Both the position numbers and the translations under genes were made by a program. A stretch of DNA of 64,000 nucleotides from Luteolibacter sp. Y139 (GTDB taxonomy: Bacteria; Verrucomicrobiota; Verrucomicrobiia; Verrucomicrobiales; Akkermansiaceae): positions 868,001-932,000 of the forward strand of contig NZ_JBBUKT010000001.1 of NCBI RefSeq assembly GCF_038066715.1. The letters run 5' to 3'. Position 1 is the first letter of the stretch; every line of letters starts with the position of its first letter. This document shows, piece by piece, positions 2,926 through 19,200 of this stretch. The notes under the pieces are model-generated. The model saw only the letters and a program-made list of their open reading frames with translations, did no database searches and had not been told where the DNA came from.

Positions 2926-3765
2926 TCAGTGCCTGCCTTTGGCGGAGTGACCGGTGAAATGTTCGACGGCGGTTTTCAGGCCCAGCGTGAGGAGGGCGAG
3001 CAACGCCAGCAACGCGGCACAGGCGAAGGCGGCGCTGAAGTGATACTCATTGTAGAGCACCTCCACGTGCAGCGGCAGCGTGTTGGTCTTGCCGCGGATG
3101 TGGCCGGAGACAACCGAGACCGCGCCGAATTCACCCATGGCGCGTGCGTTGCAAAGCAGCACACCATAGAGCAGACCCCACTTGATATTGGGCACGGTCA
3201 CGCGACGGAAGATCTGCCAACCGGTCGCACCAAGCGTAACCGCGGCTTCTTCCTGATCGCTGCCCTGGCTTTCCATCAGCGGGATCAACTCGCGGGCGAC
3301 GAAGGGAAAGGTGACGAACACCGTGGCGAGCACGATGCCCGGCAGGGCGAAGATGATCTGGATGTCGTTCTCCTGGAGGAACGGCCCGAACCAACCGCGC
3401 GCGCCGAACATCAGCACGAACACAAGACCCGCGATGACCGGCGACACCGCGAACGGCAAATCGATCAGCGCGAGCAGGAACGAGCGGCCCTTGAAGCGGA
3501 ATTTGGTAATCAGCCATGCAGCGGATACACCGAAAACCGTATTGAGCGGCACGGCGATGAAGGCCGCAATCAGCGTGAGCTTGATGGCGGACAGCGCGGC
3601 ATCGTCGGTGAGCGCTTTCACAAGCACATCCGCGCCACGGCGGAAGGCCTCGATGAACACCGCGGCCAGCGGCAGCAGCAGGAACAGCGAGAGGATGACG
3701 AAGGCGACGCCGATGAGCAGCCAGCGGACCGGGGCAGATTCAGTGGTGACGGAACGATAGGCCAT
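2926..3765 (-). CDS. cysW: Sulfate ABC transporter permease CysW
   Basis: A 279-residue inner-membrane permease with about six hydrophobic helices. The first is [19 protein letters not shown]. The EAA-type loop that contacts the ATPase appears as [23 protein letters not shown], and [15 protein letters not shown] matches the CysW signature. It starts 4 bases after the cysT stop, so the two are probably translated in a coupled way. It forms the heterodimeric channel with CysT. Confidence 0.95.
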
Positions 3766-3769
3766 CGGT

Positions 3770-4588
3770 TCAGCGGGTCTGCCAGTTCAGGCGACGTTGA
3801 AGAAGATTGATGAGGAAGAGCAGCCCGAAGGAAACAATCAGCATGCCGGACGCGATGACCGCGGCAGCCTCATACTTGAATTGCTCCAGCTGTTTCACGA
3901 TGAGCAGCGGCAGGATCTCCGTCTTCATCGGCAAGTTGCCCGAGATGAAAATGACCGAACCGTATTCACCGATGGCGCGCGCGAATGCCAGCGTGAAGCC
4001 GGTGATCAGCGCGGGCACCAGCATCGGGAAAATCACCCGGCGGAACGTGGTCCAGCGACCCGCACCAAGACTCGCTGAGGCTTCTTCCAACTCATGTCCC
4101 AGATCCTCCATGACCGGCTGCACGGTGCGGACCACGAAAGGAAAGCCGATGAAGGTCAGAGCGATGAAAACGCCGATCGGCGTGTAGGCGCTCTTGATGC
4201 CCCACTCGAACAGGATCTTCCCGATCCAGCCATTCGGCGCGTAGATCTGGGTGAGCGTGATGCCCGCCACGGCGGTGGGCAGCGCGAAAGGAAGATCCAC
4301 GATCGCATCGAGGAGCTTCCTTCCGGGAAATTCATACCGCACCAGCACCCACGAGACCAGCAGGCCGAAGACCACGCTGACGGAGGCGGCGGCCGCACTG
4401 GCCCCAAAGGTCAGCCGGGCGGCGGCCAGCGTCCGGGGAGAGGTCAGGATCGACCACCACTCGGCAGGACCCAAACCGGCCGCCTTGATGAACAAGGCGG
4501 CCAGCGGGATGAGGATGATGCCGCTCAGCCAGAAGATGGTGATGCCCATCGAAAGGCCGAAGCCGGGAATAACGCGTTGCTTCGCCAT
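3770..4588 (-). CDS. cysT: Sulfate ABC transporter permease CysT (CysU)
   Basis: A 272-residue permease with six predicted membrane helices. The EAA loop reads [24 protein letters not shown], followed by [16 protein letters not shown], typical of CysT/CysU. It pairs with CysW. A 99-base gap separates it from the upstream binding-protein gene. This gap holds a repeated GTTTTCAG and a CTC/GAG hairpin on the coding strand, which could set the ratio of binding protein to permease. Confidence 0.95.
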
Positions 4589-4687
4589 TAAGTATTCAGC
4601 TCTCAGTTGGGAGTTTTTAGCAGGGGCACCCGGTCGTCTGGCTGCTTTTCGCTGAAAACTCGATTCTGAAAACCCGCAAACTGCGTC

Positions 4688-5710
4688 TTATTTCTTCCCG
4701 TAGGCTTGGTCGAAGGTTCCCCCGTCGTCAAAGTGGGTCTTCTGTGCCTTGGCCCAGCCACCGAAGTCCTTGTCCACGGTGACCAGCGGGATGCTCGGCA
4801 GCTTGCTGCTGAACTTGGCGAGAATCTCCGCCTTGCGGGGGCGGTAGAAGTTCTGGCCGGCCAGCTCCTGGGCTTCATCCGTGTAGAGGAATTCCAGGTA
4901 GGCCTTGGCCGCTGCAGCGTTGCCGTGCTTCTCCGCATTCTTTTCCACCACCGCCACCGGAGGCTCCGCGAGGATACTCAGCGAGGGGTAGATGATCTCG
5001 GTCTGACCCGGGAACTGCTTCTCAATGAGATACGCCTCGTTTTCCCACGACAGGAAGACGTCACCGATCTTATTCTGCGCGAAGGTATTCGTCGCGGCGC
5101 GGGCACCGGTGTCGAGGATCGGCACGTTCTTGAAGAGCTTGGTGATGTAATCCAGCACCTTCGCCTGGTCGCCGCCGTATTGCTTCTCCGCCCATGCCCA
5201 AGCCGCCAGGTAGTTCCAGCGGGCGCCGCCCGAAGTCTTTGGATCCGGCGTGATCACCTGCGTGCCATCCTTGATGAGATCAGGCCAGTCCTTGACACCC
5301 TTGGGGTTTCCCTTGCGGACCACGAAGACGATCGTGGAGGTATAGGGCGAGCTATTGTCCGGCAATTTCGTCTGCCAGTTATCCGGAAGCAGCTTGGCCT
5401 TGTTGGCGATGACATCGATGTCACCAGCGAGCGCCAGAGTCACGACATCCGCCGGCTGGCCATCAATGACGGCGCGCGCCTGCTTGCCGGAGCCTCCGTG
5501 CGATTGCACGATCTTAATCTTACCCTTGCCATCAGCCTCCCACTTCTTCGTGAAGGCGGCATTCACCGCTTCGTAGAATTCGCGGGTCGGGTCATAGGAG
5601 ACATTCTGGAGTTCGATTTCGCCGCCAGCGGAGGCTCCTCCTTTGCTCTTGCAACCCGGCAGCACCAGCAGGGAGGCTAGGGCGAGCGGAATAAAGTATC
5701 GTGCTTTCAT
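4688..5710 (-). CDS. Sulfate-binding lipoprotein, copy 1
   Basis: A 340-residue sulfate/thiosulfate-binding protein (Sbp/CysP family). It begins with a lipoprotein signal, [20 protein letters not shown], whose LPGC lipobox predicts a membrane-anchored form rather than the soluble periplasmic form of Proteobacteria. Family hallmarks: [55 protein letters not shown] and SWENEAYL. It captures sulfate for CysTWA. It lies 20 bases downstream of a close paralogue of the same length. The two are similar along their whole length, so a recent tandem duplication is the simplest origin. Confidence 0.93.
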
Positions 5711-5730
5711 GGTTTCAGTATCGGTGAGGG

Positions 5731-6753
5731 TTATCGTGTGTAGATCTGGTCGAAAACGCCGCCGTCGGCAAAGTGAGTTTGCTGGGCCTTCGGCCAGCCG
5801 CCGAAGTGGTCGATGGTGACGAGTTCGATTTTCGGGAATGTGGCGGCGTACTTTGCCGCAGCCTGCGGGTCGCGGGGACGGTAGAAATGCTTGCCGGCGA
5901 GATCCTGTCCCTCCGGCGTGTAGAGAAACTCAAGATAGGCCTTCGCCGCCTCGGTGCTGCCCTTTTTTGCGGCGGTTTTTTCAACCACTGCCACGGGGGG
6001 CTCTGCGAGGATACTCAATGACGGATAGACGATCTCGGTTTCTCCCGGGAACTGTTTCGAAATCAGATGGGCCTCGTTCTCCCATGAGAGGAGCACGTCG
6101 CCGATCTTGTTTTGTGCGAAGGTCGTGGTGGAGCCGCGCGCGCCGGAGTCGAGCACCGGCACGTTATGGTAGAGCTTGGCGATGAATTCGCGGGCGGCCT
6201 TTTGGTCACCGCCGTTTTGCTTCTCCGCCCATGCCCAGCCGGCGAGGTAGGTCCAGCGCGGGGCTCCGCCGGTTTTCGGGTCGGGAGTGATGACTCCCAC
6301 TCCGTCCTTCACCAGATCACCCCAATCCTTGATCCCCTTCGGGTTGCCCTTGCGGACGACGAAGACGATCGTGGAAGTATAGGGCGAACTGTTGTTCGGG
6401 AGCTTGGTTTGCCAGTCCGTGGGAAGCAGACCGGTCTGCTTCGCGATCATGTCGATATCGAGCGAGAGCGCGAGCGTCACGACATCCGCCGGCTGGCCAT
6501 CGATGACGGCCCGCGCCTGCTTGCCCGAGCCGCCGTGAGACTGGGTGATCTTGATCTCACCCTTGCCTTCCGCGGCCCACTTCTTTGCGAAGGCCACATT
6601 GACCTCCTCGTAGAACTCGCGGGTCGGATCGTAGGAAACGTTCTGAAGCTCGATGGCTGCCGCGCCGGAACCGTGCTGCTGGCTCTTTTCCTTGCATCCC
6701 GGCAGAGCGATGAGCGCTGCGAGGAGGGCGGGAATCAATGCGTGCGATTTCAT
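5731..6753 (-). CDS. Sulfate-binding lipoprotein, copy 2
   Basis: Also 340 residues, starting at the ATG at 6753, which gives the lipoprotein signal [20 protein letters not shown]; upstream in-frame starts only add non-homologous sequence. It shares [66 protein letters not shown] and FYRP with copy 1. Differences cluster in the N-terminus after the lipobox (SQQHGSG), around residues 95-110 and in the C-terminal third. The two may differ in affinity or in ligand (sulfate versus thiosulfate). It follows the porin gene by 37 bases. Confidence 0.92.
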
Positions 6754-6790
6754 TGTTGGAGAAAGGGGGTTCCGGCGAGCAGCTCGCACT

Positions 6791-8011
6791 TCAGAAGTAG
6801 AAGCGGACGCCTGTGAGGAAGGTGGTGCCTTCGTAGTCGCCACCATTGCCGCCGCCATCGAGCTTGGCGTATTCGGCACCGGCCATGAGCTTCAGCTTGT
6901 CGCCGTAGATGAAGTACTGCGCGCCTAGATAGAATGCCTGGTAACGATCGCCACGACCGCCGCCGGTGAGATTCGGCGCCTCGCTTTCATAGCGGGTCTG
7001 GCGGATCACACTGTCGGGACCATCGCCATCGGTGTAGCTGTAGCGCGCGACAAGCTGCAGGCGCTTCGGGATGATATCGTACATCGGCTGGATGAAGAAG
7101 CCGAAGACGTCCCCGTCCTTGCCTTCGCCACCGGAGCCATTGAAGCCTTCCACCACCAGCGCCCATGGTCCCTGCTCAGCCCAGAAGGTGGCGGACACGA
7201 GGTCATCGTAGCGGGTGAAGAGATGGTCGTCCTTGTCGTGATCGCTGTGGATCCAATCCAAGCGGAAGTCCGCCTTCTCCCAGCCGAAGCACGCCTTGGC
7301 ATCGTAGCCGACACCGGCACCGTAGCTGTAGGCACCACCGAACTTGCCGAACTCCTTGTCGCTATCGTTCGAATAACCGCCCACCTGCCAGGTGAAGTCC
7401 CCCACCCTGCCCTCAGCCGTGAGCCCGAGCATACGGTTCACGCGGAGCTGGTTGAAGACCTGCGAGCTATCGAAAGTCTGCTGCAGGTCACTCGACTGGA
7501 GCCAGTCGAAATAGCCGATCAGCGGCTTCATGTGACCAGCGGTCAGCGTGAAGTTCTTGTTCGGCTTCCACCGGACGTAGGCGTCCTCGAGGCCATTGTA
7601 GAAGGGATCGAAATTGTCCGTGCTCTGGAAGGTCGCGCGGACTTCCAGGGTCTTCTCAAACATCTTCGCATCGAAGCCGAAGCGGAAGCGGCGATCCTCC
7701 CATGCATCGGCATCCCCTTGATCGGAATCCACCCAATAATATTGCCCTTGGTATTTCCCGATCAGCTTGAACTCTTCCAGCAGCGGATTCTTGTCGTTCT
7801 TGTAGAGGACAAAATTGCTCCACAGCTTGTCGAACGTCGCCGTCTCTTCCGCGGAAGGTTCGCTGAAGGGAGAGAAGTCGAAGGCAAGGCTGGTCGAGGG
7901 CAAGGCCAGGAAGCCCGCCGCGGCCAGCAGCAGAGTCTTCGGTGATTGGGGTGCACGGGCAGCGACGGAGATCATCCGCACTCCCGGGGTTCGGGTGGTG
8001 TTGGTTTTCAT
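6791..8011 (-). CDS. Outer-membrane porin, OprO/OprP (phosphate-selective) family
   Basis: A 406-residue protein with a signal peptide (hydrophobic segment [19 protein letters not shown]) and alternating beta-strand sequence ending in Phe, as expected for an outer-membrane barrel. [39 protein letters not shown] and [20 protein letters not shown] match the OprO/P porin style. Being the first gene of the sulfate transporter operon, it probably lets sulfate or related anions cross the outer membrane; that substrate is inferred from context. The family name reflects phosphate-selective homologues. Confidence 0.82.
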
Positions 8012-8047
8012 GGTATCGGGAAATGGCTCCTATGGGGAGGCTCGGTG

Positions 8048-8061
8048 CCCCTGGTAAGGGG
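8048..8061 (-). promoter_or_regulatory. CCCCT/AGGGG leader hairpin upstream of the porin operon
   Basis: Coding-strand AACCCCTTACCAGGGG forms a 5-bp stem with a 4-base loop, about 40 bases before the porin start. Similar hairpins occur upstream of two other operons in this window (15633-15645 plus strand, 54910-54923 minus strand). Function unknown. Confidence 0.35.
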
Positions 8062-8221
8062 TTGCGGGACTCGGGGAGCTGCCGCGCAGGCAAAAAAAGA
8101 GACCATCGATGAGGAATGCGGGAACGGGACGGGGATGCGCATCGAGGCGCTCTCACCGCTTTTGGGTCCGTTCGCCGAGTTCCTCCGGTGGTCCGGTTGG
8201 GTCTCTGGATCAGGAAACGTG

Positions 8222-8242
8222 GCGGGTTCGGATGGAACCCGC
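8222..8242 (-). terminator. Hairpin after yezD
   Basis: Perfect 8-bp stem GCGGGTTC/GAACCCGC with a 5-base loop, 30 bases beyond the yezD-like stop on the minus strand. No T-tract follows. It may end the Rrf2-yezD transcript or act as an attenuator before the porin operon. The remaining sequence between 8012 and 8271 shows no gene. Confidence 0.4.
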
Positions 8243-8271
8243 GATGTGGAGGGAAATGGGGTTACTTCAGT

Positions 8272-8475
8272 TTAAGAAGCCGAGCCAGGCTCGTCGGATT
8301 TGGCCGGGAAGCGGGTCTTTTCAAGACTCTCGACCTGGGTCACGCGTCCTTCGTGGACGATGATCTGGACGGAGCCGAAGCGCAGGTCTTCGACCTTCTT
8401 TCTCACGACCTCCAGCCAGTCGGCTGATAGGGCGGCGGTGTCCGTTTTCGGACGGTCATTTGCTTTGGTGCTCAT
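8272..8475 (-). CDS. YezD family small protein (DUF2292)
   Basis: A 67-residue protein with the DUF2292 core WLEVVRKKVEDLRFGSVQIIVHEGRVTQVESLEKTRF. Family members are small proteins often found beside sulfate-assimilation or CymR-regulated genes; their biochemical function is not established. The gene overlaps the end of the Rrf2 regulator by 20 bases, so the two are almost certainly co-expressed and translationally coupled. Its place next to the sulfate transporter operon fits the family's usual context. Confidence 0.85.
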   Translation of the reverse strand: MSTKANDRPKTDTAALSADWLEVVRKKVEDLRFGSVQIIVHEGRVTQVESLEKTRFPAKSDEPGSAS

Positions 8476-9040
8476 CGCTCGGGGCGGTCACAAGTTGGGA
8501 AAGTCCTTGGAGGAATCCGTCCGCGGGGTTGGCTTTGCCGCGGGCGGGGGTGGCGCTGTTCTTCACGCCGGGGTGAGTGGAGAATGGTGGAGCGATGCCG
8601 TCGCGGCGCATCTTGCGCAGCGTGACTTCCACCACTTGGGCGAGGGTGTAGCGGTCGAGGATGTTGGCGATGGCGTTGCGCACGTCGATCATCAGCATCC
8701 GCAGGCCGCAGTGGTCCTCATCCGGGCAGGTGCAGCGCTGGTAGGCGAATTCACTGGCGCAGCAGATGGGAGCCAGACGGCCGTCCATCAGGCGAACCAG
8801 ATCGCCGATGCGGATCTTGTCGGCTGCAGTGGCGAGCGTGTAGCCGCCCAGCTTGCCGCGCTTGGTTTCGACGATCCCTGCTTCACGGAGCTCCTGGAGG
8901 ATGCGCTCGATGAATTTCAGGGGCAGCCGGTTTGCATCCGCGAGTTCGACACCAGACACGACCGGCAGCCCCATTTCAGTGGCAATACCCAGATGGATGG
9001 TGGCGCGCAGAGCATACTCGGCTTTCTTGGAAAGGTGCAT
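8456..9040 (-). CDS. Rrf2 family transcriptional regulator with cysteine cluster
   Basis: A 194-residue winged-helix regulator. The N-terminal LSKKAEYALRATIHLG, the recognition region PLKFIERILQELREAGIVETKRGKLGGYTLA and the wing are typical of Rrf2/IscR/CymR. Cysteines lie at residues 93, 94, 103, 105 and 111, the region where IscR and NsrR bind an Fe-S cluster, so a redox or sulfur-status sensor is plausible. Its C-terminal 40 residues are low in conservation. Upstream of sulfate-uptake genes, it most likely controls them in response to cysteine, O-acetylserine or cluster status; the target genes are inferred from position. Confidence 0.88.
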   Translation of the reverse strand: MHLSKKAEYALRATIHLGIATEMGLPVVSGVELADANRLPLKFIERILQELREAGIVETKRGKLGGYTLATAADKIRIGDLVRLMDGRLAPICCASEFAYQRCTCPDEDHCGLRMLMIDVRNAIANILDRYTLAQVVEVTLRKMRRDGIAPPFSTHPGVKNSATPARGKANPADGFLQGLSQLVTAPSDEHQSK

Positions 9041-9057
9041 CGGCGAATGTGGAGTTG

Positions 9058-9129
9058 AGAGTAGGAATTAAATGCGGGTGGTCAAGAGGGTTTTTGAAAT
9101 TCGTCATAACCACTTGTTTTAAAGTAAGT
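9058..9129 (-). promoter_or_regulatory. Candidate promoter and operator of the Rrf2 gene
   Basis: On the minus strand TTGACC (9080-9085) and TACTCT (9058-9063) are 16 bases apart, a plausible -35/-10 pair 18-45 bases before the start. Upstream, 9112-9129 is an imperfect dyad, ACTTgtTTTAAAgtAAGT on the plus strand (14 of 18 bases symmetric), with size and AT content suitable for an Rrf2 dimer. This is pattern reading only. Confidence 0.35.
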
Positions 9130-9204
9130 TAATGAAAGATCCCACTCTTTCCCGCCACAGAATAGTCCCGAAATCCCCTTGGGACCAAGGAATCTTTTCC
9201 GGCC

Positions 9205-9229
9205 AAAACCCCCGCCCAGTGGGGGTTTT
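9205..9229 (-). terminator. Intrinsic terminator of the encapsulin-cysteine operon
   Basis: AAAACCCCC (9205-9213) and GGGGGTTTT (9221-9229) form a 9-bp stem with a 7-base loop. The A/T ends provide T-tracts on both strands, so it can work in both directions. It lies 62 bases beyond the cysK stop. Confidence 0.75.
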
Positions 9230-9290
9230 ACCCGGGTATTGCCGGATCAGGATTGGACGCAGGAATCAGGAACCGCAATCAGCCCCGATT

Positions 9291-10307
9291 TCACGCGGAA
9301 TTCCGCTCAAATGCCGCTTCCACCGAAAGCCCCGGATCCAGTCCGTTTTCCAGCAGCCACTCGCCATTGAAGAGCTTCGACTGGTACTTCGCCCCGGAGT
9401 CGCACAGGATGGTCGCGATCGTCAGGCCCGGACCATGATCGAGGGCATACTTCACCGCTCCCGCGACATTGATCCCGCTGGAAAGCCCCAGGAACAGGCC
9501 TTCCTCGCGGAGAAGCTGATAAACCACCGACAGCGCTGTCTGGTCGTCGACGCGGTAGGCCTTGTCCACGGTGATGTCCTCAAGGTTCCTCGTCACGCGG
9601 CCTTGCCCGATGCCTTCGGCAAATGAGTCGCCGTCATCGTTGTCGAGGTTGCCATGGGTGAACCACGACCACATCGCCGCGCCGTAGGGATCCGCGCAAA
9701 CAACCGTCACCTCCGGGTTCTTCTCCTTCAGGAAGAGCGAGGTGCCAGCCAGCGTGCCGCCGGTGCCGACGGCCGCCACAAAGGCATCCACCGTGCCAGC
9801 CGTCTGCTCCCAGATCTCCGGCCCGGTCGTCTCGTAGTGAGCCTGGCGGTTGGCGGTATTGTCGAATTGGTTCGCCCAAAACCACCCGCGTTCCTCCGCC
9901 ATGCGACGGGCGATGTGGTTGTAGTTGTCCGGGTCGCTGTAAGGCTTGGCCGGCACGGGAATGACCTCCGCTCCCAAGGTGCGAAGATACTGGAGCTTCT
10001 CCGGCGATTGGGTCTCGGGAATAATGATGACCGTCTGGTAGCCGCGTGCATGACCGATGACCGTGAGACCGATCCCGGTATTCCCTGCTGTCCCCTCGAT
10101 GATCGTGCTGCCCGGCTTCAGCACGCCGCGCTTCTCCGCATCCGTAATGAGACCATAAGCGGCGCGGTCCTTCACCGAGCCGCCCGGGTTCATGAACTCC
10201 GCCTTGCCGAGAATCTCGCAGCCGGTGAGTTCCGAGAGTTTGTTGAGGCGGATCAGCGGCGTCTTGCCGACGTGCGAATCGACGGCGTGGTACTGGGGGC
10301 GACTCAT
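9291..10307 (-). CDS. cysK: Cysteine synthase A
   Basis: A 338-residue PLP enzyme that converts O-acetylserine and sulfide to cysteine. The PLP lysine is Lys46 in NPGGSVKDRAA. TAGNTG (73-78) is the substrate loop, and GTGGTLAG is the phosphate-binding loop. The C-terminal region ILCDSGAKYQSKLFN also fits this family. It starts 18 bases after the serine acetyltransferase stop and is the last gene of the operon. The pairing places acetylserine production and use together. It is slightly longer than E. coli CysK, with insertions around the PYSDPDNYNHIARRM segment, and resembles the CysK/CBS-like group found in many Gram-negatives. Confidence 0.93.
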   Translation of the reverse strand: MSRPQYHAVDSHVGKTPLIRLNKLSELTGCEILGKAEFMNPGGSVKDRAAYGLITDAEKRGVLKPGSTIIEGTAGNTGIGLTVIGHARGYQTVIIIPETQSPEKLQYLRTLGAEVIPVPAKPYSDPDNYNHIARRMAEERGWFWANQFDNTANRQAHYETTGPEIWEQTAGTVDAFVAAVGTGGTLAGTSLFLKEKNPEVTVVCADPYGAAMWSWFTHGNLDNDDGDSFAEGIGQGRVTRNLEDITVDKAYRVDDQTALSVVYQLLREEGLFLGLSSGINVAGAVKYALDHGPGLTIATILCDSGAKYQSKLFNGEWLLENGLDPGLSVEAAFERNSA

Positions 10308-10325
10308 GGTAACAAGTTGGCAGGT

Positions 10326-11309
10326 TCAGATGGACCAGAGCAAGTCCGCTTGATCCCGGCCGCGACCTTTGCGTCCGGGCTTGGTCTTGATGCTGAGGTT
10401 CTTTTCCTCGTAGATGACCAGCGAGTTCGCCGGGATGCTATGCATCAGGAAGACGTTCGCGCCGATCGTTGAATTCTCGCCGATGATCGTGTCCCCGCCG
10501 AGGATGGTCGAGTTCGGGTAGATCGTGACGTTGTCGCCGAGATTCGGATGGCGCTTGAGGCCTTTCACGACGTTGCCGTCTTCGTCTTTGATGAATGTGC
10601 GCGTGCCAAGTGTGACGCCGTGGTAGATTTTGCAGTGATTGCCGATGTAGCAGGTTTCCCCGATGACCACGCCAGTGCCGTGATCGATGAAGAAATGCGA
10701 GCCGATGCTGGCACCGGGATGGATGTCGATTCCCGTTCGCGAGTGCGCCCACTCCGTCATCATTCGCGGAATGATGGGGGCACCGGCACGATAGAGCCGG
10801 TGAGCCAAACGTTGGATCGCGATCGCCTCGATGAAAGGATAGGAGAGAATGACCTCCTCGCGGCTGCGTGCCGATGGATCATTCGCATAGGCGGCCTCGA
10901 TGTCCGTGCGCAGCACCTCGCGCACGATGTGCAAGGCGCGGCAGAATTTTTGCATGATCGGCGGCGTCTTGCCGGTCGGCACATTGGGATTGCCGACGCG
11001 GACGCTCTTCCTCACCTGGTCTTCCAGCCGCGAGATGACGTCCCAGAGCCTGCGTGCGGTCAGTTCGGCGAGCGTGCCATTCGGGACCACATCGGTATCA
11101 AGGAAGCCTGGAAACAAGAGCTTGAGCAAATCTTCGCAGACCTCGCCCACGCTGTTCTTCGAGGGCAGGTTGAGCGCCTCGGCATTGTTCCAACCGCCAA
11201 AGCGTTCGTACGAAGCAAGCAGCTTCGGCACATATTCGCCGTAAGGAATCTCGAACGGGGAATTGCCGGTGGTTTCGAACTTCGAAACGGAAAGGGAAGA
11301 GTCACTCAT
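10326..11309 (-). CDS. Serine O-acetyltransferase (EpsC type)
   Basis: A 327-residue acetyltransferase making O-acetylserine. The C-terminal half shows the left-handed beta-helix hexapeptide repeats (GIDIHPGASIGSHFFIDHGTGVVIGE, CYIGNHCKIYHGVTLG) with the catalytic His region. The N-terminal half is the helical domain of the long EpsC-like serine acetyltransferases. I chose the ATG at 11309: it gives a 4-base ATGA overlap with the rhodanese stop, indicating translational coupling, and the homology begins shortly after. Serine acetyltransferase is a recurring companion of family 2A encapsulins, and cysK follows directly. Confidence 0.92.
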   Translation of the reverse strand: MSDSSLSVSKFETTGNSPFEIPYGEYVPKLLASYERFGGWNNAEALNLPSKNSVGEVCEDLLKLLFPGFLDTDVVPNGTLAELTARRLWDVISRLEDQVRKSVRVGNPNVPTGKTPPIMQKFCRALHIVREVLRTDIEAAYANDPSARSREEVILSYPFIEAIAIQRLAHRLYRAGAPIIPRMMTEWAHSRTGIDIHPGASIGSHFFIDHGTGVVIGETCYIGNHCKIYHGVTLGTRTFIKDEDGNVVKGLKRHPNLGDNVTIYPNSTILGGDTIIGENSTIGANVFLMHSIPANSLVIYEEKNLSIKTKPGRKGRGRDQADLLWSI

Positions 11310-11842
11310 GAGGAGGAACGCTGGTTCCACGGAGCCTTCGCAATGAGCAGGCCCATGCCGCACCAGTCGGTGATGCCGGCGAAGATAAGGCCCGCACCAA
11401 CGAAGCCGGACAGGCCGAAAAATCCGCGATGTACGAACCACCCAAGCAAGACTCCGGTCAGGACCAGTGCCCCGGCAGCGATGCGAACCTGCCGCTCCAA
11501 CGAGATGACCTTGGTTTGCCCGCGAGTGACAGGAAGATTCGCCTGGACCCACGCCTGCGTCCCGCCTTCAACGACCACGGCATTCTCATAGCCTGCGGCT
11601 TGGAACTGGTCGGCAGCCTTTTGCGCGCGTGCTCCGGAGTGACAGAGGATGTAGATCGGCTCCTGGGAAGACAGCTCACCATTCTCGATCCGCCGCTTCG
11701 GAGCGAGTGCATCCAGCGGAACGTTGCGGGCTTCCGGCACATGGACTTCGCCGAACTCCAGCGGAGTCCTGACGTCGATGACCGTTAGAGAGGAATCCTG
11801 ATCAAGCAGGCGCTTCAGGTCGGTGGGAGCGATTTGGCTCAT
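11306..11842 (-). CDS. Rhodanese domain protein with C-terminal membrane hairpin (YgaP-like)
   Basis: 178 residues. The single rhodanese domain (1-105) has active-site Cys67 in CHSGAR. Two membrane helices follow (about 120-157), the arrangement of E. coli YgaP (rhodanese plus DUF2892). It would carry sulfur as a persulfide at the inner membrane. Its stop overlaps the serine acetyltransferase start. Rhodaneses are frequent partners in family 2A encapsulin clusters, which fits a sulfur-relay role between desulfurase and acceptors; the actual donor and acceptor are unknown. Confidence 0.88.
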   Translation of the reverse strand: MSQIAPTDLKRLLDQDSSLTVIDVRTPLEFGEVHVPEARNVPLDALAPKRRIENGELSSQEPIYILCHSGARAQKAADQFQAAGYENAVVVEGGTQAWVQANLPVTRGQTKVISLERQVRIAAGALVLTGVLLGWFVHRGFFGLSGFVGAGLIFAGITDWCGMGLLIAKAPWNQRSSS

Positions 11843-11861
11843 GATGGCAAATGGGGAGCGT

Positions 11862-12332
11862 TCAGGATCGGAGGGTGGCGATGAGACGGAGCGGATGCTT
11901 CAGCAAATCGATGGCGTCAAGAACGCTGGTCGTAAAGACGTCGGCACTCCGGATTGCGGCACCCGAGGCTCCCTCCTTCTGAATCACGGCGATTCCCAGC
12001 GCGGCAGCTTCCAGCATCAGGCGGTCATTGCGCCCGTTGCCAATGGCGACCACACGGTCCGCCCCTAGATCGCGGACATACTCGAGCTTGGTTTCCGCCT
12101 GTGCTTCGCCTGGAATGATCGTCAGCGAGACAGGCAGTCCCTCGAGTTGCAAGGCGGCAAGGCCATGCGTATCCGCCGTGAGGACATGGAGCTTGAAGCT
12201 TTTCGCCAGGCACCGGAGATCCTCGCGGACACCGAGATGGATGGCACCATCCATCGCGAGCGTCCCGTTGTAATCCATGACAAGGTGCTCCAGCGTCAGC
12301 CGGTCGAATCCGGGAATGTCGATCTCGATCAT
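11862..12332 (-). CDS. Soluble P-type-ATPase-like HAD family protein
   Basis: A 156-residue HAD-fold protein of the type annotated as soluble P-type ATPase (COG4087). Motif I is DYNGT (residues 20-24), P-type-like rather than the DxDxT of ordinary HAD phosphatases. Motif IV is GNGRND, close to the GDGxND of P-type ATPases. There are no membrane helices. It may be a small phosphatase or a phospho-sensing protein; the substrate is unknown. I chose the ATG at 12332 over a TTG nine bases upstream. It sits inside the operon, 19 bases after the desulfurase and 19 before the rhodanese, so it should be co-expressed with the nanocompartment. Confidence 0.8.
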   Translation of the reverse strand: MIEIDIPGFDRLTLEHLVMDYNGTLAMDGAIHLGVREDLRCLAKSFKLHVLTADTHGLAALQLEGLPVSLTIIPGEAQAETKLEYVRDLGADRVVAIGNGRNDRLMLEAAALGIAVIQKEGASGAAIRSADVFTTSVLDAIDLLKHPLRLIATLRS

Positions 12333-12351
12333 CTCTACCAAGGGTGATTTT

Positions 12352-14139
12352 TCAGCGCCTCACGATGCCATGCAGCGCGTGGATGAGTGCATCCACATCG
12401 GCGCGATTGTTATAGAACGCAAGCGACGGGCGGATGGTGCCCTCCACGCCGAAGTGCCGCACTGCAGGCATGGCGCAGTGATGGCCGGCACGGACGGCGA
12501 TACCCTGACGATCGAGTTCCTTCGCAATGCGGTCATTCGGAATGCCGGGCACCACGAAGCCGAAGACGCTCGCCTTGTTCACCGCGGAGCCGATCTGCCG
12601 GACGCCGTGCACCGAACGCAATGCGTCCTCCGCATACTCGAGAAGCGAGTGCTCATACGCAGCCAGCGCCGGGATGCCGAGGCCGATGAGGTAATCGATC
12701 GCCGCCCCGAGGCCGACAACGCCCGCGATGTCCGGGGTGCCCGCCTCGAATTTTTCCGGCGGCGCATTGTAGATCGTCTTCTCGAAGGTCACATCCTTGA
12801 TCATGTGTCCCCCGCCCTGCCATGGCGGCATCGCCTCGAGCAGGTGTGACTTCCCGTAGAGCGCGCCGATTCCCGTGGGACCGAAGACCTTGTGCCCGGA
12901 AAAGACGAAGAAGTCCGCATCCAGCGCCGTCACGTTGATCGGGAAATGCGGCGTCGACTGCGCACCATCGACCAGCACCGGGATCCCGCGCGAATGAGCC
13001 ATCGCGATGATCTCCTCGATCGGATTCACGGTACCCAAGGCGTTCGACACATGGGTGACGGAAACGATCTTGGTTCGGTCGGTCAGCAGACTCGGCAGCG
13101 AATCTAACAAAAGCTCGCCGCGATCGTTGATCGGGATCACCCGCAAGCTCGCTCCAACCTGACTCGCGAGCAACTGCCACGGCACGATGTTCGCATGGTG
13201 TTCAAGCTGGCTGACGAGGATCTCGTCGCCCTGGCCGATGTTTTGATGCCCCCAGCTCTGCGCAACGAGGTTGATCGCCTCGGTGGTGCCACGCACGAAT
13301 ACGATTTCCTTCGCGTCCGCTGCACCGAGGAACTGCCTGACCTTTTCACGACCTCCTTCGAAGAGTTCGGTGGAACGTGCTGCGAGGGTATGTGCCGCTC
13401 GATGGATGTTCGAATTGTCACGCGAGTAGAAGCGCGAGGTCGCATCGATGACCGACTGCGGCTTGTGCGTCGTCGCGGCATTGTCGAGCCACACCAGCGT
13501 GCTTCCGTTCACGTGCTGCTGGAGCGCCGGGAAGTCCTTGCGAACGCCATCGATATTGAACTCCGGCAGCCCCGCAAGCGGCGAAGGCTGCGTGCCGAGG
13601 GATGCGAGGCGCAGGCCCGGCAGGTCCTTCAGAAAATAAAAGTCCGGCTCCAGCGATTCGGCACCTTTTCCCGGCAGGCCGTGGTGATGCGGCGCCTTCG
13701 CCGGTGCCGGCGAGACCCGCGAACCGAGACCCTGGGTGTAGAACGATGGCTCGCCGAACTCATGCGAGGCATGGTCGCCCGGCCGATGCGTGCCGGTCGG
13801 CGGCTCATCACTCTTCGCGACCGGCTCCGGCTCCGCGCCTACCACCGTGGGATGCACGGGCGGAGCGGAAGCCGATGAAGCATGCGGAAAACCGCCGGAA
13901 AGCGAGATATCCCGTCCGCCATTCGAGGGACCGGATGATCCCAGCGGGCTCGACAACGGCACATCCGCCGGCAGGCCCGCGACGGTGTGCGGAACCGAGA
14001 CCGGCACGGACGGCACCTGGGATTCCGCCGCGGATCCGGAAAAGAACTCATTGGCCAGCCGGGAGACCAGCGCCGTCCCGAAGTCATCGGCTCCGAGATC
14101 CACCGGCAGAGCCGCTGACTCAAGCCGTGGGATAGACAT
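12352..14139 (-). CDS. Family 2A encapsulin cargo cysteine desulfurase (SufS-like)
   Basis: A 595-residue protein in two parts. Residues 1-193 are a Pro/Ser/Gly/Ala-rich, probably disordered extension with two related short motifs, EPSFYTQG (130-137) and EPDFYFLKDLPGL (164-176). From residue 194 it is a group II cysteine desulfurase. PLP lysine Lys417 lies in SGHKVFGPTG and the catalytic Cys555 in RAGHHCAMP. It removes sulfur from cysteine as persulfide. The extension has the composition and place of the encapsulation domain of family 2A cargo. I chose the ATG at 14139, which overlaps the shell gene by 20 bases; an earlier in-frame ATG would intrude further. Confidence 0.92.
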   Translation of the reverse strand: MSIPRLESAALPVDLGADDFGTALVSRLANEFFSGSAAESQVPSVPVSVPHTVAGLPADVPLSSPLGSSGPSNGGRDISLSGGFPHASSASAPPVHPTVVGAEPEPVAKSDEPPTGTHRPGDHASHEFGEPSFYTQGLGSRVSPAPAKAPHHHGLPGKGAESLEPDFYFLKDLPGLRLASLGTQPSPLAGLPEFNIDGVRKDFPALQQHVNGSTLVWLDNAATTHKPQSVIDATSRFYSRDNSNIHRAAHTLAARSTELFEGGREKVRQFLGAADAKEIVFVRGTTEAINLVAQSWGHQNIGQGDEILVSQLEHHANIVPWQLLASQVGASLRVIPINDRGELLLDSLPSLLTDRTKIVSVTHVSNALGTVNPIEEIIAMAHSRGIPVLVDGAQSTPHFPINVTALDADFFVFSGHKVFGPTGIGALYGKSHLLEAMPPWQGGGHMIKDVTFEKTIYNAPPEKFEAGTPDIAGVVGLGAAIDYLIGLGIPALAAYEHSLLEYAEDALRSVHGVRQIGSAVNKASVFGFVVPGIPNDRIAKELDRQGIAVRAGHHCAMPAVRHFGVEGTIRPSLAFYNNRADVDALIHALHGIVRR

Positions 14140-15064
14140 ATTCGTGGTAGTTGCCGATCGAGACGTCTTCGAGAACAGCCAGCGCATCCTCACCCAGCTT
14201 CGCGAGCGAGAAGTAGCGCGTCACCAGGTGCGAGGCGATGGAGTGCTCATTCGTGCCCATGTAGCGCACCGACAGACCTGGCTCGATCTCGCCGGCCACG
14301 CCCGCCTTCTGCAGGCCCACTACGCCGCGTTGCTTCTCACCCACGCGCAGCAGCAGGATGCTCGTCTTGCCATCCTTGATCGGAAGCTTGTCGCTCGGGA
14401 TGAGCGGAATGCCCCGCCACGTGATGAAGGGCGAACCGAACAGCGTCACGGTTGGCGGTGGAACGCCACGGCGCGTCGCTTCACGGCCGAAGGCGGCAAC
14501 CGCCTTGGGATGCGCGAGGAAGAAAGCCGGCTTCTTCCAAACCAGGCTGATCAGTTCGTCGAAATCGTCAGGCGTCGGCGGACCCTTGCGGGTCTTGATG
14601 CGCTGGGCGGGATTGACCGAGTTCAGCAGGCCGAATTTCGGATGATTCACCAGCTCGTGCTCCTCGCGCTCCTTCACCGCTTCCACCGTCAGGCGGACCT
14701 GCTCGCGGAGCTGGTCGATCGCATTGCTATAGAGGTCGGTGATGCGGGTGTGGGTGCGAAGTACGGTCTGGATCGTACTAAGGTGATACTCGCGGGGGTC
14801 CTGCTCATAATCGATGAAATCGGTTGGCAGTTCCGGCTCGCCATCGTCCACGGTGAGCAGGTCGACGGTGACACCCTCGGAGTTCTGCTTCACGCGGTTG
14901 ACGCGATACACTCCACCATCGACATCCACCCACGGAAGCAGGAGATGCAGCCAGCGTGGCGTGATTTCATCCCATTGTGGCGGGGTGACGGTGGCGGTGG
15001 CCAGATTGCGCGCGGCTTCGGCGCTGACGCTGAGACGGACGGGAAGATCGACGGGATCGGGCAT
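14120..15064 (-). CDS. Family 2A encapsulin shell protein (SrpI-like)
   Basis: A 314-residue shell protein. ITPRWLHLLLPWVDVDGGVYRVNRV, IDYEQDPREYHLSTIQTVLRTHTRITDLYSN, FFLAHPKAVAAFGREATRRGVPPPTV and ITWRGIPLIPSDKLPIKDGKTSILLLRVGEKQRGVVGL match, from memory, the SrpI protein of Synechococcus over nearly its full length. The fold is HK97-phage-like; many copies form a nanocompartment. It has no catalytic site. First gene of the operon, with the cargo desulfurase directly after it. I chose the ATG at 15064, which puts the start near the conserved N-terminal arm. No Shine-Dalgarno sequence is visible. Confidence 0.93.
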   Translation of the reverse strand: MPDPVDLPVRLSVSAEAARNLATATVTPPQWDEITPRWLHLLLPWVDVDGGVYRVNRVKQNSEGVTVDLLTVDDGEPELPTDFIDYEQDPREYHLSTIQTVLRTHTRITDLYSNAIDQLREQVRLTVEAVKEREEHELVNHPKFGLLNSVNPAQRIKTRKGPPTPDDFDELISLVWKKPAFFLAHPKAVAAFGREATRRGVPPPTVTLFGSPFITWRGIPLIPSDKLPIKDGKTSILLLRVGEKQRGVVGLQKAGVAGEIEPGLSVRYMGTNEHSIASHLVTRYFSLAKLGEDALAVLEDVSIGNYHEYVYPTA

Positions 15065-15304
15065 GATGATGCGGGGAGAGGTGTTGCTAGAAAAGGAGAC
15101 GCGGCCGCGCGAAATTCGCGGGACCATGGCGCGAACCTCCGGAAACCGGTCGGCTCGCTTGGTAAGGGAAGGCTTGGCCGCCCGTGGACGGATGCGGCTC
15201 GCTGCCTTGCTTCGCCTCCAAGAGTTTGGTCGGCGGCCCTTCCGCCTGTGATCGCCGTGTATCCTCGTGGACTCTCCGGCTCTCGCGAAAGGGGTTGCAC
15301 GGGT

Positions 15305-15333
15305 AGCTCAGTAGAGCGGGGTTCCTTTGTCAA
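15305..15333 (-). promoter_or_regulatory. Possible promoter of the encapsulin operon
   Basis: A perfect TTGACA (-35 consensus) lies on the minus strand at 15328-15333. No good -10 box stands at 17 bases; TACTGA sits at 14. The stretch overlaps GCTCAGTAGAGC, a short hairpin. It lies about 265 bases before the shell start, so a long leader would result. Low confidence. The rest of 15065-15570 holds no gene I can support. Confidence 0.3.
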
Positions 15334-15578
15334 CGCCTTGCGCCTTCTTATTCCTACTTTTTGACAGAAATGACACTTCGGAGCGATCCCGCGACGGGCC
15401 TTCTCCGGAGGAAGCCAACGTGGGCCAATTCGGAAAACCAGCGTTCATTCCTTATAGAATAAAGGAAATCCACGGCACCGATTGTAAAATCGCTTATTCC
15501 TCTCCGCCACCGCGCCACTCCAAATCCAACTTTCGCAAAAAACTTCTTGAACTCCCACCACTCAGTCGGCATTAGTCC

Positions 15579-15611
15579 GTCCGTCAGCCGCAAGCAGGCC
15601 TCCTGACGGAC
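15579..15611. repeat. 9-bp inverted repeat in the intergenic region
   Basis: GTCCGTCAG (15579-15587) and CTGACGGAC (15603-15611) can pair around a 15-base loop. No T-tract on either side. It lies between the divergently transcribed encapsulin and LamG operons and just before the structured region below. Could be a terminator, attenuator or protein site. Confidence 0.35.
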
Positions 15612-15621
15612 TTCCTGCAAG

Positions 15622-15709
15622 CGATTCGGCCACCCCTAGCAGGGGAGCATGTTGGCATGGTGCCGCAATTTGCGGGACGGGATGAGGCCCCGACCGTAGC
15701 GGCGAATCG
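15622..15709 (+). ncRNA. Candidate structured leader RNA upstream of the LamG operon
   Basis: A closing stem CGATTCG/CGAATCG (15622-15628 with 15703-15709) encloses a CCCCT/AGGGG hairpin (15633-15645), a CCGCA/TGCGG hairpin (15663-15675) and an ACGG/CCGT stem (15677-15697). The arrangement looks like a multi-branched RNA. It matches no riboswitch class I recognise. Part of it resembles a segment upstream of the secretion locus (54883-54924, minus strand). It could be an untranslated leader far upstream of the LamG start; no promoter was identified. The stretch 15710-16070 shows no supported gene. Confidence 0.3.
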
Positions 15710-16070
15710 AAACACACTCTCCTGCACGAACGATGAAATCTTTTCCGACGCCACCTGTTAGCCGAGCCGCATCCTCCTTCGAGGCATCGGCTGCCTGCTG
15801 CTGTTGTTGATAGGCGCTGTCGCGATTTTCCGGTGATCCATCGGATGGATTCGCGGTCGACCGGCGATGTTTTGGGTTTCATCGCCAGTTGATCGCTTCG
15901 AAGCCACGGCGGGCTCGGGTTTCTTGGGTTCTCTCGAGCCCGCCGTGGTAGTCCACCGAAGGACAACCGATTGAGCGACAGCTCGCGCCTTTCTCGCGAT
16001 CCCGGGTCTTCTCCGGACCTCTTCATCTCCTGCATCCAGGCCTTTTTTTGGCCAAAACCGATTCCTTACC

Positions 16071-16241
16071 ATGTTACTCTACAAACTTCATTTTCTCACT
16101 CCGGGCGAATCGACACGCCGCGCCCTCAGCGCGCGGCTCGTCGCTGGTGCCCGGCCCGACGCCTTCGTGGCGCGCGTCCGCTCCCCCCATCAACCGGACG
16201 CCACCGGCGTGCCTGCCAAGCGCGACCCCAAACTCCCCTGA
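16071..16241 (+). CDS. Possible small leader ORF (56 residues)
   Basis: An ATG-started open frame of 56 codons that ends 20 bases before the LamG protein start. It begins MLLYKLHFLTPGESTRRAL and is rich in Arg and Pro. No recognisable domain or signal. It may be a leader peptide or chance; the high-GC sequence makes open frames common. Confidence 0.2.
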   Translation: MLLYKLHFLTPGESTRRALSARLVAGARPDAFVARVRSPHQPDATGVPAKRDPKLP

Positions 16242-16260
16242 CCTCCAACCCTCTCTTTTC

Positions 16261-19200
16261 ATGTACCCCACGCAACAAAACCGCAGTCTTCGCCTCGCCA
16301 TCCTCGCCGCTGGCCTCGGCACGAGCCTTTCCAATGGAGCCATCCTCGTCAGCCTCGATCCATCGACGGCCCTCTACGACAGCAATATCAAAGGCATCGT
16401 AAATGACGGCGGCACCGCTGGCAGCCAGTCCGGTATTCCGGTCCTCGGAGATACCGAGCACGTGAAGGGCCTCACCTTCAATATCGCCTTTACCCCGACA
16501 GCTGCCGACCTCGATCGCGCCGTGCCGGCCGATGCACGCACGGTGCTGCTGATTGAGATTGGCGGCACCTCGAATGGCTTCGGCCTCTATCTCATCGATG
16601 GCGTGCCGACCGTCCTGTCGAAGCAAGGCTCGAATGATGCAACGCTGCCCGCTTCACTCAACGACACCTCACTCAATGCGATCGCGGTGCAGAGCCCGAT
16701 CGGCAAGCTGAACGCGGGCACTGCTTACACCTTCTCCGCATCATGGAATCACCTCGGCACTTTGGAGCTGAAGGTTCAACCGGACGGTGGCAGCGCGGTG
16801 GTCTCTTCCCACGCGATCTCCGGCACGCCCGGCAACTGGTCCGGAAACGACACGCTCTCGGTCAAAACAATCTCGGCGGCGAACGCCGGCGGCCTGGCAG
16901 GAAACAACGCCGGCAACGTCTTCGGCCCGCCCTTCGACGTTAACAATGCCTTCAGCTTCGCCGGTTCCGTGAGCCGGGCCTTGTTCTGGAACGCCTCCTC
17001 CGTCACGCCGCCGGTAGCTACGGCACCCGTCGTACTTGGCTTCGAGGCAACCTCCCTCCCCTCCACGGGCAAGGTCCGGCTTCATTGGCGGGTCACTGAA
17101 GGCGGTGCACCCGCGGCTACCAACCTCGTGATCAAGTCCGGTGAAACCATTATCCATACGCCCTCCACGTTGGAGAACTTCGCCGACGTGAACGCAAGCG
17201 GAGCGACGAACTTCACGATCAGCGCCACCAATGCCACCGGCACGACCACGAAGAACTCGAGCGTCGCGGCGGATACTGCCTTCTCCGCAGAGGTTCGCGC
17301 AGATTCGCCTGTCGCTTGGTTCCGTTTCAATGATCAAGCTGGATCATCCCTCATCGCCGACTCCGCTGAAAATGCCGCGCCCCACGATGGCCGGATCTTT
17401 GGCCAACCGGTGAGCGGCAGCAGCGGCTTCGTCGATGGTGCCGCACTCTTCGACGGTGGCAGCGGCATCATTTCGAATACCATCCTCGACCCTGCCAATC
17501 TCACTTCCGGCTTCACCGTGGAAGCCGTCATCCGCCGGGCTCCGGGAGTAATCGGAGCGAACCCGGTGGTCTTGGCGCAACGCGGCACGACTGGACGCTT
17601 CCATCTCACCTCATCTGCCGACGGCAAGCTGCTCACCGACATCGGTGGCGGCGAAGTAAAGCACTCCGACGGCAAGCTTCACGACAATCAGTGGGCTCAC
17701 GTCGCCGTGGTGGTAGATCGGCTGCACACGGAGGTGCGCTGGTACATCGATGGTGTCCTCGCCGGCTCCAGCGCCGACGGATTGAATCCCGACGGAACCA
17801 CCTTCAATCCCAACTTCACCGTCGAGTCCGCAACTGGCGAGTGGATCATCGGCCTGGGTAAAGCGCTCACCGGAAACTACTGGAAGGGCAACATCGACGA
17901 GATCGCCGTTTATGACCGCGTGCTCGACGATCCGAATGGCGACGCGGACCGGTCCGACTCACGCGTTGATGAACACCGCAATGCATGGTGGAGCGAAACC
18001 ACCGGCCTGCTCGATTTCAGCGCGTCCAAGACTACGGTCAACTCCGGCGATCCCGTCCAGCTCATCACCAAGGTGGGACCAGACATCACCTCCGTCACGA
18101 TCGACCATGGCGTCGGCACCGTGCCCCTGGTGAACGGCACCGCGACCATCACGGTTAACCCCGCGGTCACCACGACCTATCAGGTCACCGCAACCGGCCC
18201 CGGTGGCAACGTCACGAGCAGCGTGAGCGTGACCGCCCTGCAATACCAGGCACCGATCGTCAAAGGCTTCGCCGTCACCAAGCTCGGCACGCCCGGCCAG
18301 GTGCGCCTGCATTGGAAAGTCTCCCAAGGTGAAGCCACGAATCCGACCACGCTGTCAATCAAAGCAGGCGCGACCGAACTTCACGTCCCCACTGCACTCC
18401 AGGGCTTCGCGGATGTCGACGCCGGTTCAGCCAACGCCTTCACCCTCACAGCGGTCAACGCCACCGGCACCACCAACGCCAATACCGCTCTCGATGCCGA
18501 GAACAACTTCTCCGCGGCAGTCCGGGCGGATGCGCCTGTCGCATGGTACCGCTTCAATGAGCCAGCGGGCACTGAACTCTTCGTAGACTCCGCCGACAAC
18601 GGCGCACCGCATAATGGCCGCGCCACCGGCACCCCGGTGAGCGGCGTGGCAGGCGTCGTGGACGGTGCCATCTCGCTCGATGCGAACGGCGGCGTGGTCA
18701 CCGATCTGATCCTCAACCCCGGCCAACTCGATCCCGGCTTCACTATCGAAACCGTGGTGCGCCGCGATGCCGCCATCAACACGTTGAACCGCGCCATCGT
18801 TAGCCAAGCGGATCTCAACGGCACCGGCCGCGTGCTGCTGTCCCTCTCCGACGCCAATGGCACGCCTCGCACCTATCTCGGTCAAGGCGTGCGCAAGGAT
18901 GCGGACGCCAACGTGGCAGCGGAAACGTGGGCCCACCTCGCGGTCGTGGTCGATGCACTGCACACTGAAGTGCGCTGGTATCTCGACGGCCAGCTGGTCG
19001 GATCCACCAAGGACGGCACCAATCCCGACGGCAGCACCTTCGATCCGAACTTCATCTTCGAAGCCTCGGAAGGCGCATGGAACATCGGCGTGCAGAAGAC
19101 ACTCACCGCCGACCTGTGGCGTGGCGAGATTGATGAGGTCGCCATCTATAACACCCTTCTCGATGACCCCGATGCAGATGGTGACAAGGCCGACTCCCAC

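Follow-up and report, generated by a model that had tools for sequence, protein, structure and literature searches.

Operons in which a family 2A encapsulin shell accompanies a cysteine desulfurase have been counted at 1281 in 12 phyla, and their most enriched accessory genes encode serine O-acetyltransferase and rhodanese, according to the sections available of the published survey (PMC8346489). In Synechococcus elongatus PCC 7942, where the shell SrpI and the desulfurase CyD form the closest described pair (6x8m/6x8t), the available parts of the report state that SrpI rises on sulfate starvation, that the cargo is loaded through its N-terminus, that encapsulated desulfurases carry a LARLANEFFS motif, and that knock-outs have no growth defect (PMC8049743). 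Desulfurase encapsulins are also cited, in a partly available text, as involved in sulfur storage (PMC12407261). The window analyzed here is a stretch of 64,000 nucleotides from Luteolibacter sp. Y139 (contig NZ_JBBUKT010000001.1, positions 868,001 to 932,000), which holds an operon of this kind together with a sulfate-uptake locus, and a small hairpin is found in the leaders of both. It is likely that the shell/desulfurase operon is switched together with sulfate uptake through this common leader hairpin.

Like the SrpI/CyD pair, the window has a shell that is homologous over residues 9-311, an adjacent desulfurase with an N-terminal extension bearing RLANEFFS, and a link to sulfur, as far as the accessible parts of that report describe these features (PMC8049743). 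Unlike it, the operon in the window comprises six genes, including those for a HAD-fold protein, a membrane rhodanese, serine acetyltransferase and cysteine synthase (CysK), and is preceded by a hairpin held in common with sulfate uptake. Serine acetyltransferase and rhodanese are shared with the surveyed operons, whereas the available part of section 8 of the survey (PMC8346489) speaks of neither a HAD member nor a leader RNA. As an encapsulin operon, the locus is a further example of the published family 2A desulfurase operons. What is new is the leader hairpin, which lies outside the operon's coordinates; the preliminary description, drawn from the sequence alone, was sound on the operon and missed the element that ties it to sulfate uptake.

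The hairpin has the form GCC-GA-CC(N8)GG-A-GGC and occurs in one or two copies per leader; the pattern read by eye in shell leaders is GCCGACC-N7-GGAGGC, approximately 115-260 bases before the shell start. It is present in 29 of 52 scanned regions upstream of shells, among them four in which it was placed by hand (L020, L029, L033 and L038; L and G numbers label comparison loci and comparison genomes), and in none of the six Nitrospira regions. Twenty-six copies form a gapless alignment, A3, from which L007, L009 and L162 were omitted for their other loop lengths and in which L164 and L165 were shifted by 8 bases by hand. Under the structure ...(((..((((....)))).)))..., 92.9% of the cells of A3 are paired, compared with 83.9 +/- 1.4 after shuffling, and its covariation is 0.363 against 0.184 +/- 0.027 (0/500 shuffles), although these shuffles overstate the significance, as the sequences are related and anchored on the conserved CC and GG; copies found elsewhere by R1, the model built from A3 alone, are independent of this. 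Changes on both sides occur in four of the seven pairs, and when the structure is slid along the alignment, pairing never exceeds 51.1% and covariation never exceeds 0.179. In a longer alignment of all 29, RNAalifold predicts this hairpin and no other. Covariation among 24 non-shell copies is 0.440 against 0.178 +/- 0.033 after shuffling, a figure that leans to structure in so far as the copies were found by a paired model; four of them score below 20 bits and were picked for position. Pairing is therefore kept above the level of shuffles through two-sided changes, as in a structured RNA.

Beyond shell leaders, the hairpin is associated with sulfate genes. On 57 loci (972 kb), R1 gives 46 matches of at least 20 bits, which comprise 25 training copies (one from a duplicate genome, L163 repeating L003), the shell leader of L009, which was not used in training, and 20 copies elsewhere. 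These precede genes for the sulfate-binding protein Sbp (L018, L167 and L170), serine acetyltransferase (L026), outer-membrane barrels (L002, of the alginate-export type, L005, L008 and L012), DUF3034 proteins (L042 and L043), carbonic anhydrase-like proteins (L012 and L008) and others, while weaker copies precede a sulfatase gene in L028 (18.5 bits) and a rhodanese gene in L038 (19.4 bits). In the control, encapsulin loci from Methylobacterium and Nitrospira totalling 847 kb, R1 gives two matches of at least 20 bits (29.1 and 20.3), the better of which (L079) resembles coding sequence by eye.

A second model, R2, was built from 47 copies, among which are copies 1 and 3 of the window and further ones between Rrf2-family regulator and porin genes, and was run on 286 genomes of the class. 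At E <= 0.003 it finds 62 matches in 51 of the 286, where about one would be expected from the E value, itself rough. Wider regions were viewed for 30 R2 matches, chosen by score or by the following open reading frame (ORF), and for 21 further places. Of 25 matches with at least 28 bits, 24 were checked (all but G343), and 22 of these lie in or beside sulfate or cysteine clusters, or 20 of 22 without the two from G021, which is training locus L012 again; only G143:C60 and G667 fall outside such clusters. The arrangement is most often Rrf2, hairpin, porin, Sbp, CysT, CysW; of the 30 wider loci, 19 contain an Rrf2 match and 22 an Sbp match, and in L268 and L269 the hairpin stands between Sbp and CysT. 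By Pfam, 20 downstream proteins divide into 10 Porin_O_P, two solute-binding proteins of the Sbp type, and one each of encapsulin shell, OprB, alginate-export barrel, DUF3034, TonB receptor and prepilin-like protein, with two unmatched. R2 also turned up an additional shell locus (L276, 26.3 bits).

The window itself contains three copies (Table 1), two in tandem in the shell leader and one before the porin gene of the sulfate-uptake locus. Their inner pairs are exchanged as units within the one genome, AA/UU in copy 1 and GG/CC in copies 2 and 3. Copy 3 is convincing only by its position, by a same-genus copy in G114 found with R2, and by its own R2 score, and with R1 would not stand alone; at the corresponding position in L002, L008 and L012, R1 gives 28.7-29.9 bits. 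Across the genome from which the window comes, R1 has 30 matches at E <= 10, three of which are the window copies. Among 17 of the others that were viewed, none was recognized before a sulfur gene, and 13 overlap ORFs of at least 90 residues, while four do not (L181, L184, L186 and L191).

Several observations weigh against a common switch of this kind. The hairpin is absent from 23 of the 52 shell upstream regions, including L008, L012 and L166, and the first outer-stem pair is broken in 7 of 23 non-shell copies. Since the training set of R2 already held Rrf2-porin copies, the naive test of the distribution is that of R1 only, and by R1 copy 3 reaches 15.6 bits with a genome-wide E of 2.84, its 27.0 bits with R2 coming from a model trained on it. 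G478 and G346 are linked to sulfur only via Rrf2 and a cysteine-synthase-like gene, and the match at G494:15528 lies behind, not before, a sulfate operon. R2 matches below 28 bits are mixed: 15 of 20 fetched loci have no Sbp match, and several fall inside genes. Related pairs of loci (L008/L012 and L167/L170) and tandem copies also make for fewer independent events. On the side of the compartment, the predicted structure of the shell has a predicted local distance difference test (pLDDT) score of 50.6, too poor to search for the HK97 fold, which accordingly rests on homology, and the desulfurase scores 759.8 with the family 2A cargo model NF041166 (residues 154-590), under the cut-off of 800, a shortfall probably owed to its variable N-terminus.

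The main rival to an RNA switch is a DNA operator: the conserved element would be bound by the adjacent Rrf2 (CymR-like) protein, and the encapsulin operon would still be part of the same sulfur regulon, under ordinary repression. CymR-type Rrf2 proteins regulate cysteine genes in Bacillus, and Rrf2 operators are of a size similar to that of the hairpin element. Where the wider loci have an Rrf2 match, it usually lies immediately before the hairpin; as in CymR-type regulation, an Rrf2 gene stands beside sulfate and cysteine genes; and the core CCGG-N4-CCGG is palindromic, as expected of an operator. The element nevertheless behaves like RNA. It is on the Sbp strand in all 22 of the wider loci that bear Sbp; its pairing spans an asymmetric GA/A gap; and its 46 distinct copies (alignment A5) hold 31 G-U against 8 A-C cells, two mismatches that would be equivalent in duplex DNA. 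A protein reading sequence would not follow the exchange of AA/UU for GG/CC between the window copies, and the hairpin of the window lies downstream of a -35-like TTGACA. The Rrf2 protein of the window reaches no equivalog cut-off, scoring 65.9 with the CymR model against a cut-off of 195. The operator is an unlikely account, though one to be reckoned with, and a cis-regulatory RNA is favoured over it, not overwhelmingly. Another candidate operator, a GTAGGAAT-like sequence that can be seen by eye in the window in front of both the shell and the Rrf2 gene, was dropped, as among 16 regions upstream of shells only that of L160 has it.

Two other accounts differ in what they ask of the hairpin. 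Its GGARG could serve as ribosome-binding site for a short leader peptide that contains cysteine, with stalling at low cysteine controlling the shell gene. A short ORF like MKTKVYSCRVVSR does follow GGAAG in several subdivision-3 leaders, among them L018 (9815-9880, plus strand), L021 and L029, as read by eye, but the frame is interrupted by stops in L024 and L026 and was not seen in the window, and the copies at sulfate porins mostly lie 17-70 bases before the gene itself, which makes such a ribosome-read attenuator improbable. A weaker HSCR echo of the same ORF occurs in L019, L025 and L031, and the MKTKVYSCRVVSR-like ORF may encode a cysteine leader peptide or, alternatively, form another hairpin. 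Still less credible is that the locus is an ordinary family 2A operon whose leader sequence is common through recent descent or chance: its gene content is that of published operons, at least in the sections available (PMC8346489), and the 27-base motif is short and GC-rich, with weaker matches frequent inside genes, but a model built from shell leaders alone finds copies at unrelated genes, the pairs show compensating changes, and 51 of 286 genomes of the class have a match to the element.

Returning to a leader hairpin common to compartment and uptake, the element can tentatively be read, at somewhat less than even chances, as a new class of cis-regulatory RNA in Verrucomicrobia, a 27-base hairpin, often tandem, with an asymmetric GA/A loop, that would sense sulfur status and switch both the sulfate porin and ATP-binding cassette (ABC) transporter operon and the sulfur-storing encapsulin. 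It shares with the sulfur riboswitches of Rfam (SAM, SAH and others) the 5' leader position before sulfur genes, and differs from them as a single small hairpin, often in tandem, without an Rfam match. In the window from 3000 to 17000, Rfam gives no match beyond chance at E <= 1, and on the shell leader at E <= 10 only two unrelated chance matches. No description of the hairpin was found in the mainly open literature on encapsulin or Verrucomicrobia riboswitches, sulfur, and structured-RNA surveys. Searched for Verrucomicrobia, sulfate and porin, the texts of PMC11109978, PMC8632094 and PMC2864571 yield only an unrelated Streptomyces STAS motif, and one paper in which encapsulin and Verrucomicrobia occur together describes, in the part available, a bacterial microcompartment locus (PMC13274419). 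The hairpin gives the impression of an RNA class so far undescribed and confined to a single class of bacteria.

The two operons most likely respond to a single sulfur signal. When sulfur is scarce, the encapsulin operon would be co-expressed with the sulfate porin, the binding proteins and the ABC transporter. Sulfide would be built into cysteine by serine acetyltransferase and cysteine synthase, and this cysteine would enter the shell as the substrate of an encapsulated desulfurase, itself loaded via its N-terminal RLANEFFS tail. The sulfur removed by this enzyme would be held in the assembled shell as protein-bound or elemental sulfur, to be collected and handed on by the membrane rhodanese, and a futile cycle would be avoided if the compartment fills at cysteine excess and empties in starvation. 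In the transcript, the hairpin would bind a signal of the sulfur state, which may be a small molecule or a protein. The "regulated store or relay" of cysteine-derived sulfur proposed in the preliminary description is an inference. A regulatory element common to the compartment and to sulfate uptake would place the family 2A compartment in a defined sulfur regulon and, if the RNA interpretation holds, make it a riboregulated sulfur organelle.

The operon occupies 15064 to 9291 of the minus strand, its six genes overlapping or at most 25 bases apart in the order shell, SufS-type desulfurase, HAD protein, membrane rhodanese, serine acetyltransferase and cysteine synthase; the shell and desulfurase genes overlap by 20 bases, and those of rhodanese and serine acetyltransferase by 4. 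Curated models assign all six proteins, the HAD protein by a narrow margin, and the genes and their place agree with what had been described, including the end at 9291. The upstream limit needs moving to approximately 15333, so that the unit takes in TTGACA and the leader. Curated models and relatives likewise bear out the family 2A identity, the desulfurase cargo and the sulfur link. The cysteine-making module pointed out earlier does belong to the unit; as a kind it is not new, serine acetyltransferase and rhodanese being the accessories most enriched in the available sections of the survey (PMC8346489). With TTGACA as the -35 element, transcription would begin near 15295, giving a leader of about 230 bases. 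The hexamer is present in 23 of the 52 scanned regions upstream of shell genes, and a promoter scan of the window gave no useful site and did not list it.

Table 1. Coordinates of the features of the window discussed in the text
Feature	Position	Strand	Basis and remarks
TTGACA, -35-like hexamer	15328..15333	-	read in the sequence; putative promoter, ~90 bases before hairpin copy 1
Hairpin copy 1	15211..15237	-	shell leader; R1 29.4 bits, R2 27.5 bits; in both training sets
Hairpin copy 2 (tandem)	15132..15157	-	shell leader; R1 19.0 bits, R2 21.9 bits; in neither training set
Family 2A encapsulin shell	14120..15064	-	NCBIfam NF041162, Pfam PF19307 and PDB relatives; ATG 15064, stop 14120
SufS-type cysteine desulfurase, predicted cargo	12352..14139	-	ATG 14139; N-terminal extension of ~190 residues
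RLANEFFS	14038..14061	-	desulfurase residues 27-34; matches the LARLANEFFS motif of encapsulated desulfurases
HAD-fold protein	11862..12332	-	DYNGT motif; Pfam Hydrolase_3, 22.5 bits (cut-off 20.9)
Rhodanese domain with YgaP-like transmembrane domain	11306..11842	-	PF00581 and PF11127, over cut-off
Serine O-acetyltransferase (EpsC/CysE type)	10326..11309	-	C-terminal Ile
Cysteine synthase A	9291..10307	-	NF007989, 503.9 bits (cut-off 387)
Terminator-like stem CCCCC-N7-GGGGG, then TTTT	9205..9229	-	operon end; by eye, absent from scan list
Rrf2-family regulator	8456..9040	-	PF02082, 109.7 bits; TIGR00738, 101.3 bits (cut-off 73.3)
Hairpin copy 3	8178..8204	-	between Rrf2 and porin, ~170 bases before porin start
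Porin_O_P-type outer-membrane porin	6791..8011	-	PF07396, 41 bits (cut-off 20.9)
Sulfate-binding protein, first copy	5731..6879	-	ORF limits; TIGR00971, 421.2 bits (cut-off 155.5)
Sulfate-binding protein, second copy	4688..5710	-	ORF; similar to first copy by eye
Sulfate ABC permease CysT	3770..4588	-	TIGR02139, 394.1 bits (cut-off 246.1)

The shell, of 314 residues, exceeds the curated cut-offs of both profiles against which the preliminary description proposed to check it, with 468.2 bits for NF041162 (family 2A; cut-off 380) and 350.9 for PF19307 (SrpI-like; cut-off 22.8). It also passes the family 2B model (450.9 against a cut-off of 400, best over residues 62-303), but the SrpI-like domain is its sole Pfam domain, and the cNMP-binding domain that marks 2B off from 2A is absent. 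The best solved relatives, over residues 9-311, are 6x8m and 8t6r, the latter being the closest (403 bits) and, presumably, the shell of the study on a sulfur-storing family 2A system. One SrpI-like gene was found in this genome. The curated encapsulin models and the conservation of the operon rule out a phage capsid remnant. Shell genes with "one TGA inside" were considered for selenocysteine or read-through, which was ruled out in L161, L162 and L169, where TGA is the normal end after YHEYV. The shell gene of G055 (L170:9500-10440) is split by a frameshift, through either assembly error or decay, and one verrucomicrobial genome has two tandem shell genes (L136/L145; G551:C593).

A scan of genome contigs with the shell gave 326 relatives, and among the best 80, which were kept, the nearest (89-90%) come from a Verrucomicrobiaceae metagenome-assembled genome (MAG), Haloferula sp. 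BvORR071 and an Akkermansiaceae MAG. The identical six-gene order is found in L003 (genome G151), L004 and L159-L162 (genomes G097, G114, G154 and G232), and because it recurs in relatives the arrangement is not due to chance. In the remaining neighbourhoods, the HAD gene is missing or gene orders differ. Among 240 genomes of the order, 16 have the shell, and these include all eight in which the HAD match is full-length; in a sample of 387 genomes of the phylum, the shell occurs in 15 and the HAD protein (E <= 1e-8) in eight, five of them with the shell. In G307 the HAD gene is far from the shell, in G560 and G581 it occurs without one, and G100 has a HAD fragment. This last genome has no shell match and keeps, at L155:8314-9968, genes for rhodanese and serine acetyltransferase together with a HAD gene reduced to its C-terminal half; the locus looks like an operon remnant after loss of shell and desulfurase, a natural compartment knock-out.

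The desulfurase matches TIGR01979 (SufS) with 540.3 bits against a cut-off of 475.1, its SufS domain spanning residues 199-592, and its sequence keeps the RAGHHCAMP loop. The second motif is degenerate, with EPDFYFLKD for ASPYYFLDG. That the desulfurase, serine acetyltransferase and CysK might be the sole copies in the genome is ruled out by further matches. The serine acetyltransferase passes NF041874 (152.6 bits; cut-off 150) and falls under the cut-off of TIGR01172 (158.7; cut-off 210.65).

The HAD protein is an optional member of the operon. It reaches none of the NCBIfam cut-offs; DxNGT is invariant among 31 aligned sequences, and its structure model (pLDDT 93.7) has AQ2171 and the KdsC/YrbI phosphatases as the nearest solved folds. 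A role as a serine-phosphate phosphatase feeding serine acetyltransferase is unsupported, given weak SerB matches, the invariant DxN and these folds. That it is specific to encapsulin operons holds partly, within the order, but in the phylum sample it also occurs in the shell-less genomes G560 and G581, and the family is widespread, with matches in 7784 of 8000 scored candidates.

Among the genes near the hairpin, the two sulfate-binding protein genes of the window (4688-6879) are similar and in tandem. Carbonic anhydrase-like genes stand behind the hairpin in sulfur clusters at L012:17540-18136 and L008:16243-16839, and prepilin-like proteins are encoded behind strong copies near sulfate genes in L192, L193 and L203 (by Pfam on L192 only). 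A family of approximately 110 residues without a Pfam match lies directly behind the hairpin at L018:606-926, L028:1474-1806 and L032:16653-17000, and is a candidate new sulfur gene.

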